Shown: positions 6,365 to 19,761 of the stretch, piece by piece
Layout: every line of letters starts with the position of its first letter
Position numbering within the stretch: the first letter of the stretch is position 1
IMG/VR virus record: IMGVR_UViG_3300009159_000415
Location: 1-20,471 of that record
Strand: one strand, 5' to 3'
Length of the DNA stretch: 20,471 bases
DNA from: a virus
The notes under the pieces: generated by a model
Database searches by the model: none
What the model was told of the DNA's origin: nothing
Seen by the model: only the letters and a program-made list of their open reading frames with translations
Translations under genes and position numbers: made by a program

Positions 6365-6703
6365 ATGAAAAAACCAAAGTGGCTCAAAGATATTGAAAAG
6401 AATGATAAAGTATTATCATTGTCAAAATTGTATAGTTTACCTAAAGAGTTTGATGACTTTATTAACAAAAAAGTTACCATACTTTATAGTAAATCGGACA
6501 TTGACACTGATAGTGGAAAATTTATTTTTAAAGAAAAACTTTATAAGACAATGCAAGGATTTTACTTATATTTATCATTTAGAGGGGACGAGATTGATGC
6601 TGACATTTATTACAAACAAGAACAACACAACGAACTTATTATCTTTATAACACAATTATTAAAACAATTCAAAAATGCAACAACTAACAGCAGAAGAAAT
6701 TAA
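6365..6703 (+). CDS. Hypothetical protein upstream of thioredoxin
   Basis: A 112-residue protein with a basic N-terminus (MKKPKWLKDIEKNDK) and a central beta-rich section (KVTILYSKSDIDTDSGKFIF, FYLYLSFRGDEIDADIYY). No recognised family, signal peptide or membrane helix. Its last 29 bp overlap the thioredoxin start, which implies co-translation. A competing frame at 6393-6650 lies entirely inside it and has no supporting context. The 58-bp gap after the upstream terminator must contain its promoter, but I see no consensus there. Confidence 0.7.
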   Translation: MKKPKWLKDIEKNDKVLSLSKLYSLPKEFDDFINKKVTILYSKSDIDTDSGKFIFKEKLYKTMQGFYLYLSFRGDEIDADIYYKQEQHNELIIFITQLLKQFKNATTNSRRN

Positions 6704-6995
6704 AGGAAAAATTGAACAAGGTGAAAACTTTGTATTAGACTTATTTGCAATATGGTGCGGGCCATGTAAAGTTATGTTACGTAACTTAGAAGAGGTGAAT
6801 ACATCTTTAATAAAAGAATCTAATGGTTCGCCAAGTTATAATATCTATAAGTTTGATGTGGATTCAGACCTTGGATTTAGTAGAGAATTAGGGGTTAGAA
6901 GTGTACCAACAATAAAAATTTACAAGGAGGGGAAAGAAACATTCTCTAAGCCAGGTGTTATGATGCCAGCTGAAGTTCTTAAGTTATTAGTTTAA
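6675..6995 (+). CDS. trxA: Thioredoxin
   Basis: A 106-residue protein with a classic thioredoxin fold. The redox motif W27-C28-G29-P30-C31-K32 follows a VLDLFAIWC strand, and the conserved cis-proline lies in VRSVPTIKIY (about residues 72-81). Length equals that of bacterial thioredoxins. It reduces protein disulfides; in phages, thioredoxins commonly supply electrons to ribonucleotide reductase or act as polymerase processivity factors (family knowledge; the partner here is unknown). It lies between an unknown gene and glutaredoxin in one operon. The 3' end forms the first half of a 32-bp tandem duplication, so its last codons reappear downstream out of context. Confidence 0.95.
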   Translation: MQQLTAEEIKGKIEQGENFVLDLFAIWCGPCKVMLRNLEEVNTSLIKESNGSPSYNIYKFDVDSDLGFSRELGVRSVPTIKIYKEGKETFSKPGVMMPAEVLKLLV

Positions 6996-7046
6996 ATAAT
7001 ATGAAAAATTTAAAGTTATTAGTTTAAATAATATGAAAAATTTAAA
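6981..7046 (+). repeat. Perfect 32-bp tandem duplication at the thioredoxin/glutaredoxin junction
   Basis: Bases 6981-7012 are repeated exactly at 7013-7044, and the match runs on for 2 bp. Each copy holds the last codons and stop of thioredoxin, the spacer, and the ATG plus first codons of glutaredoxin. The first copy therefore yields an 8-codon mini-ORF (MKNLKLLV) from 7001, a chimera of the glutaredoxin start and the thioredoxin end. Confidence 0.97.
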
Positions 7047-7332
7047 TGTGATTGTCTATACAATGCAAGGTTGTCCCTTCTGTGTAGAATTCAAAGAGTT
7101 ATTACAAAAAGAAGGTATTGAATTCTTTGACAGAGATATTGACGAAAACAAAGAAGAATATGATTTGTTTGTTGAGATAACTAAAAATGATATGGTCCCA
7201 TCTTTGTTAATTATTGAAGGGGACGGTGATAACTATAAGTCATTCTTATATGCACCTGAAACAAATTATGATGAACTAACTGAAGCAGTTCAAATTATAG
7301 ACATACACAGAAAAAAAATGGGAATCATATAG
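7033..7332 (+). CDS. grx: Glutaredoxin
   Basis: A 99-residue glutaredoxin-family protein. The active site C14-P15-F16-C17 follows the first beta strand (VIVYTMQGCPFC), and MVPSLLII holds the conserved cis-proline. It would reduce disulfides using glutathione or a thioredoxin-reductase system; in phages, glutaredoxins usually serve ribonucleotide reductase, which is not in this window. The ATG at 7033 is the second copy within the 32-bp duplication; the first copy's ATG (7001) reaches a stop after 8 codons. The stop codon lies inside the loop and stem of a bidirectional terminator and overlaps the convergent gene by 8 bp. Confidence 0.92.
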   Translation: MKNLNVIVYTMQGCPFCVEFKELLQKEGIEFFDRDIDENKEEYDLFVEITKNDMVPSLLIIEGDGDNYKSFLYAPETNYDELTEAVQIIDIHRKKMGII

Positions 7333-8079: not shown

Positions 8080-10041
8080 ATGGGTAAGAATATATTAATA
8101 GTACCGAGCAATAGTCTTTTTGTAACTCCAGATAGAATACCTTTCATTAATTTTATTAATGACCCTGCTACGGATTTACCGTTAAAATGGAATGTTCAGT
8201 CGGGAGATTCAAGTCCAATATTTAATATAAGTGCAAATACTTCATCGTCTATTCTAACGGTCAATCCTGGACTTTCAAGAGTCACATTTGACAAACTTCA
8301 TATTGGAAATTATTTTGCGGTTGGTTCTCCTGGAGTTCAAGTTTTCAATGGTACATTAGATTGGGTAGGGCCTACAACTAACTTGGCAGGAGCTCAAGGT
8401 GCTATAGGAGCCAAAGGTTCATCAGGAGATATAGGCTCAACAGGATATCAAGGAGGTGCTGGAAACATGGGTAATAAAGGACCTCAAGGTGTTCAAGGGG
8501 CGCAAGGAAACGGTGGGCCTGCAGGAAATGCTGGACCAACAGGTATTACAGGTGCTCAAGGAAATATTGGTCCTCAAGGGAACACAGGAAATACAGGAGC
8601 TCAAGGGGCAATAGGATTTCAAGGTGCCCAAGGTCTTGCTGGCGCTATGGGTAATAAAGGCCCACAAGGGGCTCAGGGTGTTCAAGGTTCACAAGGAAAT
8701 ATAGGACCGACAGGAAATACAGGTGCTCAGGGCAATACAGGTAACCCTGGTGCCCAAGGTACTCAAGGTGCCCAAGGTAATACAGGTGCTCAAGGAAGTA
8801 CAGGAATTAAAGGTGATACGGGTTTTACAGGGCCAACGGGTAATACGGGAGCTCAAGGTAACTCAGGTAATCCAGGTGCTACAGGTCCTTCTGGTCCAAC
8901 AGGATTTTCGGGGCCAATAGGTGCTCAAGGTGCTCAAGGTAACAAAGGAACAATAGGGCCAACAGGTAATACAGGTGCTCAAGGCGCAACAGGTAATGCA
9001 GGTGCGACAGGTACCACAGGACCAACAGGTAATACAGGTGCTCAAGGCGCGACAGGTGCTACGGGAGCAACAGGTACCACAGGGCCAACAGGCAATACAG
9101 GTGCACAAGGCAATGTAGGGTTACAAGGACCTCAAGGGCCAACTGGTTCACAAGGTGGTTCAGGTGCAATAGGTACAACTGGGCCAACAGGTGCTCAAGG
9201 AGCCGCAGGACCTCAAGGTACAAGAGGGCCAACAGGAAATTTAGGTCCTCAAGGGCCAGCAGGACCATCAGGACCAACAGGTGGAGCAGGGCCGCAAGGT
9301 CCAACAGGTGGAACAGGCGCTCCAGGTCCAACAGGTCCTCAAGGAGGTCAAGGGCCACAAGGAGCCACAGGTAATACAGGTCCACAAGGTGTTGTAGGTC
9401 CACAAGGCCCTCAAGGTGCATACGGTCCTCAAGGAGCTACAGGACCTGAGGCGGTTACTTGTTATAATATTGGATTTATCTATGGTGCACAACCATCTAG
9501 TTTATGTGGAAGTTTTCCCTCTTTTGGTAGTGGATGGGCTCAGTCAAGTGGTTGTGGGTCAAAATATTTTTATTCATCAGAAGCTTATTGTCAGACGAAT
9601 AATACTTGTTGTTGGAATTATGCATATCAATATGCGAGTTGTACTTATGGCGATGATTATGGACAATTTGATAGTGCTGGTTACCTCAGTATTTACAGTT
9701 CTTGTTTTTCTGACAATAGAACTAAACAAGGTATTGAAACTTTAACTAATTCATTAGAAAACTTAATGAAAATAGATTCGGTTGAATATGATTGGAATGA
9801 AAATGTTGGTTCAGTACCTTACGAAGAAATGAAAAAAGATGGTAGACTACACGCTATCGGATTAATTGCTCAAAATGTTAGACAATACTATCCTGAAGTT
9901 GTTGGTATCAATACTGAAGGTTATTATTTTATTGATTATATTAAACTTAATGCTGTATTGGTCGAAGCCATAAAAGAACAACAAGTATTTATTGAAGATA
10001 TTGATAAAGAACTTGATTTTATAGAATCTAAATTGAATTAA
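8080..10041 (+). CDS. Collagen-like tail fibre with cysteine-rich tip and S74 chaperone
   Basis: A 653-residue fibre protein. Residues 1-103 form a non-collagen head (MGKNILIVP start, LDWVGPTT junction) that probably attaches to the virion. Residues 104-457 are 118 uninterrupted Gly-X-Y triplets, rich in GAQ, GPT and GNT, forming a trimeric collagen stalk. Residues 458-543 are a Gly/Ser/Tyr-rich domain with eight cysteines ([18 protein letters not shown]), the likely receptor-binding tip. Residues 544-653 are a Peptidase_S74 intramolecular chaperone: S544-D-N-R-T-K549 gives the expected Ser/Lys self-cleavage site, then [16 protein letters not shown]. The family folds the trimer and is then cut off before the serine. 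It is the first gene of a three-fibre operon. Its stop overlaps the next start by 1 bp. The antisense open frames over it are shadows of the repeats. Confidence 0.93.
8956..9114 (+). repeat. 63-bp higher-order repeat inside the collagen region
   Basis: Copies start at 8956, 9019 and 9082 (the last partial), each encoding [13 protein letters not shown](x)2G(x)2GTT, seven Gly-X-Y triplets. The first two copies differ at about 8 of 63 bases, mostly at third positions. This indicates growth of the stalk by unit duplication. Confidence 0.8.
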
Positions 10042-11759
10042 TGGCAAATGTAATAATATTTCCTCGGGGTAATACAGGGAGTACACTTCCTCATTTATTG
10101 TTTGATGACGGAACAAATAAGTTGCAATTTAATGTTAATAATAATTCCATATTATCATTATCATCTACAACTTCTACAGGTTCTTTAACAATTGGTAGTG
10201 CTGGAGTTTTTAGTTCAGGGGCAACAGCTACAGGAGGTCTTGCTATTACTGGTACAACATATGTTGATTCAACAGGAACGTGGGTTGGACCAACCACTGG
10301 AATTAAAGGGTTTCAAGGTGCTCAAGGTGCACAGGGTGTTAATACAGGAGCTCAAGGAGGACAAGGTGCACAAGGTGCCCAAGGTAACCAAGGAGACGAT
10401 AGCATCGTTGTAGGACCAACAGGTTCACAAGGTGCTCAAGGAGGTTCACAAGGAGCTCAAGGAGTACAAGGTTCACAAGGTTCACAAGGGGCTCAAAGTA
10501 CGGTGGCGGGTGCTCAAGGTGCCCAAGGGCTTGCTCAAGGAGCCCAAGGAGGACAAGGTAATACAGGAGCACAAGGTTCCCAAGGAGATATTAGTTTAAT
10601 TCAAGGACCTACAGGTTCAATAGGTGCCCAAGGTACTCAAGGTGGACAAGGTGCTCAAGGTGTTAATACAGGAGCCCAAGGGGCTCAAGGAGCATCACCT
10701 CAAGGGGCTCAAGGTGCTCAAGGTGCTAATACGGGGGCTCAAGGTGCAACAGGTGCTCAAGGAGCCCAAGGTGGACAAGGAGCTCAAGGAGCCTCTCAAG
10801 GTGCTCAAGGTGCTCAAGGTGATACAGGATTCTTTGGACCAACAGGTGCTCAAGGTAGTATACAAGGGGCTCAAGGTCCCACAGGTTTCCAAGGAGCAAT
10901 TGGAAATCAAGGGGCTCAAGGTGTTGCTCAAGGGGCACAAGGACCACAAGGAGCACAAGGAGCCGCAGGTTCTCAAGGTGCACAAGGAGCCGCTCAAGGG
11001 GCACAAGGACCGCAAGGAGCACAAGGGGCTGCAGGTGCTCAAGGAGCACAAGGTGGCTCCCAAGGAGCGCAAGGTAATATAGGAAATCAAGGGCCACAAG
11101 GTTTAACTGGGCCACAAGGAGCACAAGGTACTGCGGGTGGACAAGGTGCTACAGGTGCACAAGGACCTCAAGGTACTGCCAATACAACTCAAGGAGCTCA
11201 AGGAGCACCTGGACCTCAAGGAAATCAAGGAGCGGCAGCACAAGGAGCACCAGGACCTCCAGGACCTCCAGGTGATTCAGGGGCTCAAGGTTTTCCAGGT
11301 CCACAAGGTGGTGGTGGGGCAACAGGAGCTCAAGGACCAGGAGGAGACCAAGGTCCAGCAGGAGGCCCAGGTGTACAAGGGGCACAAGGAGCCACAGGTG
11401 CTCAAGGAGCGCCATCAGATAGAAGACTTAAAGATAATATTACCAAACTTGAAAACGTATTATCAACCACTAAAAAAATTGAAGGTGTTAGGTTCACATG
11501 GAATCCTGAACATCCTAAAATTAAGAATAATAAATCAATTGTCGCTAAACATGCGTTTAAAGGAGATGCAATTGGTGTAATTGCTCAACAAGTTGAAAAA
11601 ATTATTCCTGAAATAGTATCAACAGATATGGATGGATTTAAATCTGTAAATTATGGTTGGATGGTTAGTTTAGGTGTTGGTAGTGTTCAAGAACAACAGA
11701 GAAGAATTGATTCAATATATAAAAGAATAAACAAACTAAAAGAAGTAATAGGTGGCTGA
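10041..11759 (+). CDS. Collagen-like tail fibre with regularly interrupted triplets and S74 chaperone
   Basis: A 572-residue paralogue of the preceding gene. Residues 1-86 form a virion-attachment-like head (MANVIIFP, junction TWVGPTT). Residues about 87-458 are Gly-X-Y repeats dominated by GAQ, GPQ and GSQ. Unlike its neighbours, this stalk is broken at 16 places by insertions of one residue (GVNT, GGSQ, GLAQ, GAAQ), two (GASPQ, GAAAQ) or four ([21 protein letters not shown]). Residues 459-572 are the S74 chaperone: S459-D-R-R-L-K464, then [16 protein letters not shown]. There is no separate tip domain, so the mature fibre should end in collagen after self-cleavage. The start codon overlaps the previous stop (TAATG), and the end overlaps the next gene by 8 bp. 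Confidence 0.92.
10920..11051 (+). repeat. 66-bp tandem repeat inside the second fibre gene
   Basis: Two copies (10920-10985 and 10986-11051) encode a 22-residue unit: one interrupted quartet (GVAQ or GAAQ) plus six regular triplets. They differ at about 8 bases. The unit carries its own triplet interruption, so duplication spreads interruptions at fixed spacing. Confidence 0.8.
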
Positions 11760-13404
11760 GAATATTATAATAACTCCTGGTTTAGGTAAAATTGATTTTT
11801 ATGATGTTAGTAGTAGAATAATTACTACTGTCATTGAAACAGGTACACTTAATTTTAAGTATGCAAGCGCGATTTATTTATCTATAGATACAAGTTATCC
11901 TAATCTCCGAGCAACTAATAGTTCTATTAATATTTTAACTTCAATTGCTAGTAATGCTGGAGACTTAATTACCGCAGCTTCAGGATGGGCAGGAACAAGA
12001 CAACCTCAAGGGGCTCAAGGAACTGCGGGTGCGCAAGGAGTACAAGGAGTTTTAGGTGCCCAAGGAGCTCAAGGAGTTCAAGGTTCACAAGGTGCTCAAG
12101 GTATTCAAGGAGGACAAGGAGCCCAAGGAGGACAAGGAGGACAAGGTGCACAAGGACCAAAAGGAGGACAAGGTGCCACAGGGGCTCAAGGTGCTCAAGG
12201 TTTTCAAGGAGTTCAAGGTTCCGCAGGTGCCGCAGGGGCTCAAGGTGCCCAAGGAGTTACAGGGTCACAAGGTGCCCAAGGTATTCAAGGAGGACAAGGT
12301 GCACAAGGGAATACAGGAACAACAGGTCCTGCGGGTGGACAGGGAGCACAAGGAACTCAAGGAAATATAGGTTCAACAGGAGCACAAGGTGTTCAAGGAG
12401 GACAAGGAGCACAAGGAGTACAAGGCACACAAGGATTAAACGGTAATCAAGGCACTCAAGGAGGTCAAGGAGCACAAGGTGCTAAAGGTGTACAAGGTGC
12501 TCAAGGAGTGCAAGGAACACAAGGAGGACAAGGTTTACAAGGTTTTTCAGGTAATCAAGGGGCACAAGGTGATACAGGGCCATCAGGAGGACAAGGAGCA
12601 ACAGGAAACCAAGGTGCTCAAGGGCCTAAAGGAACTACAGGGCCAACAGGAGGACAAGGTCTTCAAGGAGGACAAGGCGCTCAAGGTACTAAAGGAACTA
12701 CGGGTGGAACAGGTGGTCAAGGAGCTCAAGGATTTCAAGGGCCTCAAGGAGGACAAGGTCCTCAAGGTGCAACAGGAGCCCAAGGTCCAACAGGGCCATC
12801 ACCTCAAGGTGCAACAGGTCCTCAAGGACCAGCAGGTGCTGTAGGAGCTCAAGGTTCTCAAGGACCCTCAGGACCTCAAGGAGGTCAAGGAGCTCAAGGA
12901 GGGCCAGGTGGAACAGGAGGTCAAGGAGCTCAAGGTGGACAAGGTACAACAGGTCCCCAAGGTCCACAAGGTTTTACAGGACCACAAGGTGCTCAAGGTC
13001 CTCAAGGACCACAAGGTCCTACTGGTTTTCAAGGGGCACAAGGAGCTCAAGGAGGTACTGGTCCTTCAGATATAAGATTTAAAGAGAATATAACTCCGAT
13101 GACAAACTCAATTAATCTATTAACTAAATTGAGAGGTGTTAGGTTCTTTTGGAAAAAAAATCATTTGGTTGATGTATCTCAATTACAAAAAGATAATATA
13201 GGTTTTATTGCCCAAGAACTTAGAGAAGTTATACCTGAAGTTGTTTATGGTAATGAAACTGATACTGAGATTTTGAAAGTCAAGTATAGTGATATTGTTA
13301 CATTATGTATTGAGGCAATCAAAGAACAATCAATCTTATTAGATTTAAAAGAACAAAGATTGGAAAGTTTAGAAAATAGAGCAAAAGAAAAGGGACTAAT
13401 TTAA
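11752..13404 (+). CDS. Collagen-like tail fibre with S74 chaperone (third paralogue)
   Basis: A 550-residue protein that begins with GTG at 11752, inside the end of the previous gene (8-bp overlap); the N-terminus AENIIITPG matches the other two fibres. Residues 1-86 are the head, ending SGWAGTRQ. Residues 87-438 are Gly-X-Y triplets dominated by GAQ, GGQ and GVQ, with one interruption (GPSPQ) near residue 350. Residues 439-550 are the S74 chaperone: S439-D-I-R-F-K444, then [17 protein letters not shown]. As in the second gene, collagen runs straight into the chaperone with no tip domain. The gene ends in a bidirectional terminator. Three fibres in one operon could assemble as different stalks, or as alternative fibres of one virion (inference). 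Confidence 0.92.
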
Positions 13405-18314: not shown

Positions 18315-18542
18315 ATGGGTGAGGAAAAAGATTGGATAAAGCCTACACACTATGGTGGAGAACAAAATCCATATGAAGTCATAAAGGTATGTGAGGAATG
18401 GGGATTAGACAAAGATGCCTATTTGTTTAATGTAGTAAAGTATGTTGCAAGAGCGGGTAAAAAACACCCTGATAAAGAACTTGAAGATTTAAAAAAAGCT
18501 GCGTTCTATTTGGATAGGAAAATTAAAAACTTAGAAAAATGA
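18315..18542 (+). CDS. DUF3310 family protein
   Basis: A 75-residue protein that matches the DUF3310 pattern almost end to end: THYGG near the start, a YEVIKVCEEWGL helix, then FNVVKYVARAGKK and ELEDLKKAAFYLDRKIKNLE. The family (PF11753) is common in phages and is related to the T7 gp1.7 nucleotide-kinase region, but isolated domains such as this are uncharacterised. It lies directly before APS kinase with an ATGA overlap, which may link it to nucleotide metabolism. Confidence 0.85.
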   Translation: MGEEKDWIKPTHYGGEQNPYEVIKVCEEWGLDKDAYLFNVVKYVARAGKKHPDKELEDLKKAAFYLDRKIKNLEK

Positions 18543-18976
18543 TTTATTGGTTAACAGGACAACCTGGTTCGGGTAAAACAACAATTGCAAAAGAACTATG
18601 CAGGATAGGAAGAGTTGGACTATACTCCAATTGGTTCAACATAGATGGTGATGACATCAGAAATTTATTTGATAATAAAGATTACTCTGAACAAGGTAGA
18701 CGTAAAAACATTGAGGTTGCCCAACAAATTGCAAAATATTTGAATACTCAAGGAAAAGATGTTGTGGTATCTTTAGTATCTCCTTATAAAGACCAAAGAG
18801 ATAACTTCAAAGAAAAGATGGGTGATGATTTGAAAGAAATTTATATTCATACAAATGAAGTTAGAGGTAGAGAACAATTCTTTGTTGAGGATTATCAAGC
18901 TCCAAAGGAAAATTATTTGTATATTTGTACTGATAATATGACGGTTAATGAATGTGCTCGAAAAATATTAAATTAA
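18539..18976 (+). CDS. cysC: Adenylylsulfate (APS) kinase family protein
   Basis: A 145-residue P-loop kinase. Walker A is at residues 7-15 (GQPGSGKTT). The APS-kinase signatures follow in order: D36-G-D-D-I-R41, YSEQGRRKNI (49-58), VVVSLVSPYKDQR (75-87), and a REQFFVEDY lid region. The canonical enzyme phosphorylates APS to PAPS with ATP. The protein is shorter than bacterial CysC (about 200 residues), mainly around the lid and C-terminus, so it may act on another adenylylated or hydroxyl substrate. No ATP sulfurylase is present in the window. It overlaps DUF3310 by 4 bp and abuts the nucleotidyltransferase-DUF59 gene with no gap, so the three are probably one functional unit. Confidence 0.88.
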   Translation: MIYWLTGQPGSGKTTIAKELCRIGRVGLYSNWFNIDGDDIRNLFDNKDYSEQGRRKNIEVAQQIAKYLNTQGKDVVVSLVSPYKDQRDNFKEKMGDDLKEIYIHTNEVRGREQFFVEDYQAPKENYLYICTDNMTVNECARKILN

Positions 18977-19690
18977 ATGAAAAAAATACATGTTGAAGGT
19001 GACCCCAAACTAAAAAATACGGGAGGAAAACAATATTCCATGTTTGTGGGAAGATTTCAACCTTTTCACGCTGGTCACAGATGGGTTCTTGACAAAATGT
19101 TAAATGAAGGTAAGAATGTTCTTATTTGTATTAGAGATATTGAACCTGATGAGAATAATCCCTTTACTGCTAAAGAAGTTGAGAATAGTCTTAATGGACA
19201 ACTTATTGATTTGATAATGGAACTCAGAGTTAAGGTAATGGTAATACCTGATATTGAATCGGTTAATTTTGGTAGAGGAGTTGGGTATGATATTATTGAA
19301 CACATACCGCCCCAAGAAGTAAGTGAAATATCTGCAACCAAAATTAGAGAACAATTAAAACAAAATTCGGACAAACATATAACGGAAAGAGAACTTAAAG
19401 AAAAAGTTATTACTGCTATAAAAACAATTTATGACCCTGAGATACCTGTTGATGTATATGAATTAGGTTTAATCTACGAAGTGAAAATATTCCCTGTTAA
19501 CAACGTCTATATCCTAATGACTTTGACTTCTCCAAATTGTCCATCTGCGGAAAGCATTCCTGTGGATATAGAAAAAGCAATAAGAAAAGTAGAAGGTGTA
19601 GAAGAAGTTACAGTTGAATTAACATTTGAACCACCTTATGAACAAGATATGATGTCAGAAGTTGCAAGATTAGAGTTAGGGTTTATGTGA
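18977..19690 (+). CDS. Nucleotidyltransferase fused to DUF59/SufT-like Fe-S domain
   Basis: A 237-residue two-domain protein. Residues about 18-128 are a HxGH-type nucleotidyltransferase: V-G25-R-F-Q-P-F-H31-A-G-H34 binds ATP, NPFTAKE lies in the middle, and I118-S-A-T-K-I-R124 closes the site. This is the pattern of NadM/NadR NMN adenylyltransferases and cytidylyltransferase-like proteins, though the segment before ISATKIR is short. Residues about 135-237 are a MIP18/DUF59 (SufT-like) domain: YDPEIPVDVYELGLIY, TLTSPNCPSAES with the conserved C188, and a PPYEQDMMSEVARLELGF end. There is no stop, frameshift or internal Met between them, so this is a true fusion. DUF59 proteins take part in Fe-S cluster maturation. 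The substrate is unknown, and I know of no standard protein with this architecture. Confidence 0.88.
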   Translation: MKKIHVEGDPKLKNTGGKQYSMFVGRFQPFHAGHRWVLDKMLNEGKNVLICIRDIEPDENNPFTAKEVENSLNGQLIDLIMELRVKVMVIPDIESVNFGRGVGYDIIEHIPPQEVSEISATKIREQLKQNSDKHITERELKEKVITAIKTIYDPEIPVDVYELGLIYEVKIFPVNNVYILMTLTSPNCPSAESIPVDIEKAIRKVEGVEEVTVELTFEPPYEQDMMSEVARLELGFM

Positions 19691-19710: not shown

Positions 19711-19761
19711 ATGTTAGAAACAGGAAAAATATTTAATGGGAATTGTGATGACTTCCCCTAA
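19711..19761 (+). pseudogene. 16-codon stub resembling the start of a DNA methyltransferase
   Basis: ATG 19711 opens a 16-residue frame ending at TAA 19759-19761. Its sequence, MLETGKIFNGNCDDFP, resembles the N-termini of N4/N6 DNA methyltransferases (a strand followed by NGDC then a helix). It begins 20 bp after the previous stop, a normal gene spacing, and the frame is broken immediately before the LAGLIDADG gene. It may be the 5' exon or fragment of a gene split by the endonuclease insertion, or simply a chance short frame. Confidence 0.35.

Follow-up and report, generated by a model that had tools for sequence, protein, structure and literature searches.

What function can be assigned to a nucleotidyltransferase that is fused to a DUF59 domain and encoded directly after a compact APS kinase? 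The question is raised by the window, the whole stretch of viral DNA analysed here (20,471 nt). Its fusion ORF (18977-19690, 237 aa) starts directly after the stop codon of the kinase ORF, which overlaps a DUF3310 gene by 4 nt. Motifs and Pfam matches bear out the original prediction of a HxGH nucleotidyltransferase domain (NT) joined to a complete DUF59 domain with cysteine C188, and the predicted coordinates and gene order were right. The conserved unit is the pair of APS kinase and NT, not the DUF59 fusion. With a probability of about two in three, this pair is a sulfate-activation (PAPS-synthesis) module, in which NT is a compact, non-orthologous ATP sulfurylase and PAPS is provided for sulfotransferases.

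Organization of the locus

The features of the locus are listed in Table 1. The Pfam match of DUF59 covers residues 141-213 of the fusion protein, and C188 lies in the motif TSPNCP (codon 19538-19540). A 16-codon remnant of a DNA methylase start (MLETGKIFNGNCDDFP, then a stop) is located 3' of the fusion gene at 19711-19761 and is followed by a homing-endonuclease-like ORF from 19781 onward; in the corresponding region of the related contig L001 (L001:4809-6435), a complete methylase comes next. The methylase start is interrupted by an insertion in the window and in L001. Thioredoxin-like and glutaredoxin-like genes (6675-6995, 7033-7332) and three large collagen-like repeat proteins (8080-13404) are encoded upstream in the window.

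Table 1. Features of the kinase-NT locus, in coordinates of the window
Feature	Position	Strand	Basis and remarks
DUF3310 gene, 75 aa	18315..18542	+	PF11753, 2.1e-13; conserved upstream neighbour
APS-kinase-like P-loop kinase, 145 aa, substrate lid shortened	18539..18976	+	PF01583, 1.5e-18
Kinase P-loop GQPGSGKT (residues 7-14)	18557..18580	+	Sequence; G, P, G and GKTT invariant in alignment
NT domain (residues 1-128), HIGH nucleotidyltransferase, proposed compact ATP sulfurylase	18977..19360	+	PF01467 (CTP_transf_like), 3.4e-7
GRFQPFHAGH motif (residues 25-34)	19049..19078	+	G, R, Q, P, H, G, H invariant in NT alignment
FGRGVGY motif (residues 98-104), family signature replacing the NMN-binding half of NadM	19268..19288	+	G, R, G, Y invariant
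ISATKIR motif (residues 118-124)	19328..19348	+	T and R invariant in NT alignment
NT/DUF59 junction (residues 129-140)	19361..19396	+	Site where sister NTs terminate, in EGKL or a similar sequence
DUF59/SUF-associated domain (residues 141-237 and stop)	19397..19690	+	PF01883, 3.8e-22; lineage-specific addition

DUF59 tail

The fusion is genuine. It is whole in L001 (99.87% over 5,499 bp, 7 mismatches to the window), and in L002 (99.96% over 4,460 bp, 2 mismatches) the junction is read through to residue 156, where the contig ends. Assembly or sequencing error is ruled out, because both contigs differ from the window by SNPs yet read through the fusion; this disposes of the hidden stop between residues 125 and 135 on which the prediction was to have failed. 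The three sequences are near-identical and so represent one virus population. A search for the same fusion in other phages, as had been suggested, yielded these two contigs only: among the best 80 of 283 relatives from the IMG/VR protein search, DUF59 was found in no locus beyond L001 and L002, and all sister NTs readable to their end stop at about 130 aa. Related DUF59 proteins are separate genes of about 102 aa in four other viral contigs. With the fusion found in one virus population only among these loci, a recurrent NT-DUF59 architecture is rejected.

The domain itself is complete. It scores 78.8 bits against PF01883 (gathering score 23.5) with the conserved cysteine present, falls narrowly below the cut-off of TIGR02945 (5.3e-41; 139 bits, cut-off 143.4) and matches the structure of TM0487 at 1.7e-23. 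The tail is an in-frame, lineage-specific acquisition seen in the population of the window only. It is dispensable for the kinase-NT module, and the fusion is an isolated curiosity.

Kinase and nucleotidyltransferase

The window kinase reaches 67.7 bits against PF01583 (gathering score 21.1) and possesses the P-loop and DGDxxR. Against TIGR00455 it gives 7.7e-21 and 74.6 bits, below the equivalog cut-off of 138.7, and its APS-binding lid (KGLYKKA, FTGI) is shortened and not complete. The canonical lid is gone from the kinases of phages, SAR11 and Casjensviridae. Bacterial partner kinases in L159, L158 and L165 pass the equivalog cut-off and have the complete lid; a canonical kinase with the APS-binding lid is adjacent or fused to NT in L158, L159, L160, L165, L166 and L167.

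Across 26 diverse NT members, 17 alignment columns are invariant; among them are those of GRxQPxHxGH, an Arg, NP and GRxxGY, together with the T and R of ISATxIR. The window NT is 49-51% identical to the NTs beside canonical APS kinases. The NT domain was folded alone, the full-length alignment having misaligned the DUF59 rows. The model has a pLDDT of 84.5, and its nearest fold is an archaeal NMNAT; a structural comparison with NadM had been proposed.

The NadM-type N-terminal HIGH half (GRxQPxHxGH) is present in NT. Matches to NadM stop short of FGRGVGY, the one in the PDB at profile position 76 of 114, and full-length NadM models are not reached (TIGR01527, 36.5 bits, cut-off 181.2; PRK01153, 40.1 bits, cut-off 127). 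As judged from its sequence, NT is not a full NadM, because similarity stops at the start of the NMN-binding half. The Sat-family domain PF01747 has no match in the window NT or in the other NTs scanned. Direct homology of NT to Sat was looked for and not found: comparison of the NT profile with the Sat of one SAR11 genome (hhalign) gave a probability of 10% and no detectable profile similarity. A SAR11 Sat carries GRDHAG and ISGSQFR at places comparable to the NT motifs, which is a lead only.

Occurrence of the pair

The IMG/VR protein search returned 283 relatives and the profile search at least 527; counts are given for 83 nonredundant phage loci. The kinase adjoins NT in 81 of these, and a DNA methylase is present in 79 and DUF3310 in 77, the recurrent order being DUF3310, kinase, NT, DNA methylase. 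Only in L131 and L135 was no APS kinase recognised next to NT. The pair is common to hundreds of freshwater viruses. A single ORF encodes both kinase and NT in phages of Stenotrophomonas and Xanthomonas (PHROG 10255). Genes for a sulfotransferase, a NADAR protein and the fused kinase-NT lie in a row in Stenotrophomonas phage Bhz60 (L082:3564-5327). A DHH-like protein of about 467 aa, encoded about 2.8 kb 3' of NT (e.g. L007:8042-9445), is present in 64 of the 83 loci; a role as PAP phosphatase was considered, but its Pfam match to the DHH family is below the cut-off.

The NT family is also found on cellular chromosomes, in SAR11, Marinimicrobia, marine Bacteroidota, Omnitrophota, Acidobacteria, candidate-phyla bacteria and one haloarchaeon. 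Where cellular loci were examined closely, an APS kinase lies next to NT or in the same protein, and both orders occur.

A small HAD phosphatase-like gene lies between kinase and NT in L151, L152 and L153, with DUF2061 directly downstream. In one marine Bacteroidota locus a small TagD-like cytidylyltransferase gene is located between APS kinase and NT (L163:7594-7992). In SAR11 genomes, NT is present at L207:7570-8351 and L227:7977-8351; the L207 copy comes after a reduced APS-kinase-like gene and has Rieske-type oxygenase-like and enoyl-CoA-hydratase-like genes as neighbours.

Displacement of CysD

An APS kinase requires APS and hence an ATP sulfurylase. The displacement test covered 148 genomes from the order to which the Flavobacteriales genome L162 belongs; completeness is unreported for the genomes searched. 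Of these genomes, 64 have APS kinase and 5 have NT, in each of the five next to the kinase. The ATP sulfurylase CysD occurs in all 59 genomes with kinase and without NT, but in none of the five with both (Fisher p = 1.3e-7, an overstated value, since the five NT genomes are likely to be relatives). In L242, which has CysD, the kinase gene is followed by CysD and CysN, and a DeoC-like gene stands alongside; in the NT genomes L237, L239 and L241 it is kinase, NT, then DeoC-like and CysQ-like genes downstream (the DeoC calls and the CysQ of L237 by inspection only). NT therefore occupies the place of CysD beside the kinase.

Sat is absent from 19 of 19 NT genomes of one test set. In a set of 24 NT genomes, Sat occurs in one (SAR11) and a convincing CysD in one (Omnitrophota). 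Repetition of the CysD test in Omnitrophota was uninformative, with two NT genomes among 145, one of them also with CysD. The evidence for displacement is confined to one order and scattered single genomes.

Sulfotransferases and other linked genes

Of 14 NT genomes, 11 gave no match to PF01507 (PAPS reductase and CysD family), so assimilation is unlikely as the main use of the product. Sulfotransferases were found in 14 of 16 NT genomes. In four Flavobacteriales they form clusters that share a contig with kinase-NT, at a distance of about 3-14 kb, and Pfam sulfotransferase matches stand beside the pair in L154, L157, L165, L167 and phage L082. CysQ removes PAP, the by-product; in L162 it is encoded 3.4 kb downstream of the pair and scores above the curated cut-off. 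Of the 35 genomes of the same Flavobacteriales order that possess DUF2061, 24 have it no more than 1 kb from APS kinase or CysD.

A phage protein family of about 200 aa is encoded 5' of DUF3310 (L140:870-1517, L044:4675-5259, L078:4720-5346 and related loci). In an independent IMG/VR search with this family, the kinase-NT module was located no more than 3 kb downstream in 33 of 41 loci. Its model is of high confidence (pLDDT 87.9) and has sulfotransferases as top fold matches, but weakly (E 0.063, probability 0.60), and its sole PDB profile match is a sulfotransferase, also weak (E 0.024). The Pfam sulfotransferase domain has no match in the L140, L044 and L033 members. On its predicted fold and profile match, the family may be sulfotransferase-like, an assignment that is weakly supported. 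The gene was not found in the window, a 20-kb fragment.

Proposed function and alternatives

As judged from gene displacement only, NT would convert ATP and sulfate to APS and PPi. The APS-kinase-like protein would phosphorylate the 3'-OH of APS (APS + ATP to PAPS), and sulfotransferases, host- or phage-encoded, would use PAPS to sulfate some target. We infer both the NT reaction and the retention of the APS to PAPS activity by the reduced phage kinase. Of the functions first considered, an adenylation-then-phosphorylation route fits well with the conserved NT-kinase pairing and resembles the conversion of sulfate through APS to PAPS. It is also probable, with slightly less confidence than for the module, that NT is a further, unrecognised class of ATP sulfurylase with a minimal NadM-like fold, which replaces CysDN or Sat in several bacterial and archaeal lineages, and that, among the hundreds of phages carrying NT with APS kinase, the subset with a sulfotransferase possesses a complete sulfation cassette.

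Under NAD salvage, NMN would be adenylylated by NT and ribosylnicotinamide phosphorylated by the kinase, the two acting like a NadR split into separate proteins that rebuilds NAD+ against NAD-depleting defences. NadM-type NMN adenylyltransferases are the closest sequence and fold relatives of NT, NadM, NadR and NadV are known in phages (PMC9503650), and phage Bhz60 has a NADAR gene ahead of its fused kinase-NT. This reading is improbable: similarity to NadM is confined to the N-terminal 76 or so of 114 positions, with other sequence in place of the NMN-binding half, and NT is partnered by an APS kinase, which is of canonical type in several lineages. In Bhz60 a sulfotransferase gene also stands next to NADAR. 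CysD displacement, CysQ and the sulfotransferases would be left unexplained. The suggestion of NAD or cofactor synthesis coupled to Fe-S maturation is not supported: the fusion is private to one virus population, and the genomic context points to sulfate activation and not to NAD. A fusion acting as a functional unit, with the adenylyltransferase coupled to Fe-S cluster maturation, is very improbable; the frame is intact and the C188 motif is kept in three near-identical assemblies, but these are one virus population, DUF59 is not in the other loci examined, and its relatives are separate genes in other phages.

The molecule that is adenylylated and then phosphorylated by the pair might instead be another small one, perhaps within a nucleotide-linked surface modification pathway, and the likeness to sulfate activation would then be superficial. 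The loss of the canonical lid from the phage, SAR11 and Casjensviridae kinases and the HAD phosphatase-like gene between kinase and NT in L151-L153 agree with this; because the phage kinase lid is shortened, a related but different substrate is possible for the phage version. As a reading of the pair as a whole it is unlikely, since lid-bearing canonical APS kinases are paired with NTs 49-51% identical to that of the window and the displaced gene is CysD.

In virome studies, phage cysC is assigned to the sulfur pathway and phage nadM to nicotinate and nicotinamide metabolism, as both are in a Lake Baikal study (PMC8066274). If the two form one PAPS module, these assignments are misleading for many freshwater phages. 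Sulfate activation by the pair would make virus-driven sulfation a testable idea, explain chromosomal APS kinases without a known ATP sulfurylase, and suggest a role for the gene pair on SAR11 chromosomes. Within the papers searched, nothing relevant was found on a non-orthologous or alternative ATP sulfurylase, on clusters of APS kinase, nucleotidyltransferase and sulfotransferase, or on DUF2061 with sulfate adenylyltransferase.

Comparison with known systems

The same adenylylation-then-phosphorylation logic is followed by CysDN-CysC and by animal PAPS synthase. The kinase-NT pair resembles the CysC-CysD-CysN operon and the bifunctional PAPS synthases in that an adenylyltransferase and an APS kinase are adjacent or fused, with NT at the position of CysD. 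It differs in that NT is a single HIGH domain of about 115 residues, neither CysDN nor Sat. PHROG 10255, annotated as 'kinase', has kinase and NT domains in one ORF and shares the family motifs; it differs in being fused, in its more reduced kinase and in an annotation without function. NadM-type NMN adenylyltransferases (MJ0541, 1f9a; 1m8j) share GRxQPxHxGH, NPFT and SxTxxR with NT and are its best sequence and fold match, whereas NT is shorter, has (F/Y)GR(G/D)VGY in place of the NMN-binding C-terminal half and is partnered by an APS kinase. The SUF-associated DUF59 protein (TIGR02945; TM0487, 1uwd) has the same complete domain with conserved DPE and TSPxCP cysteine; in the virus of the window, this domain is instead the C-terminal tail of NT.
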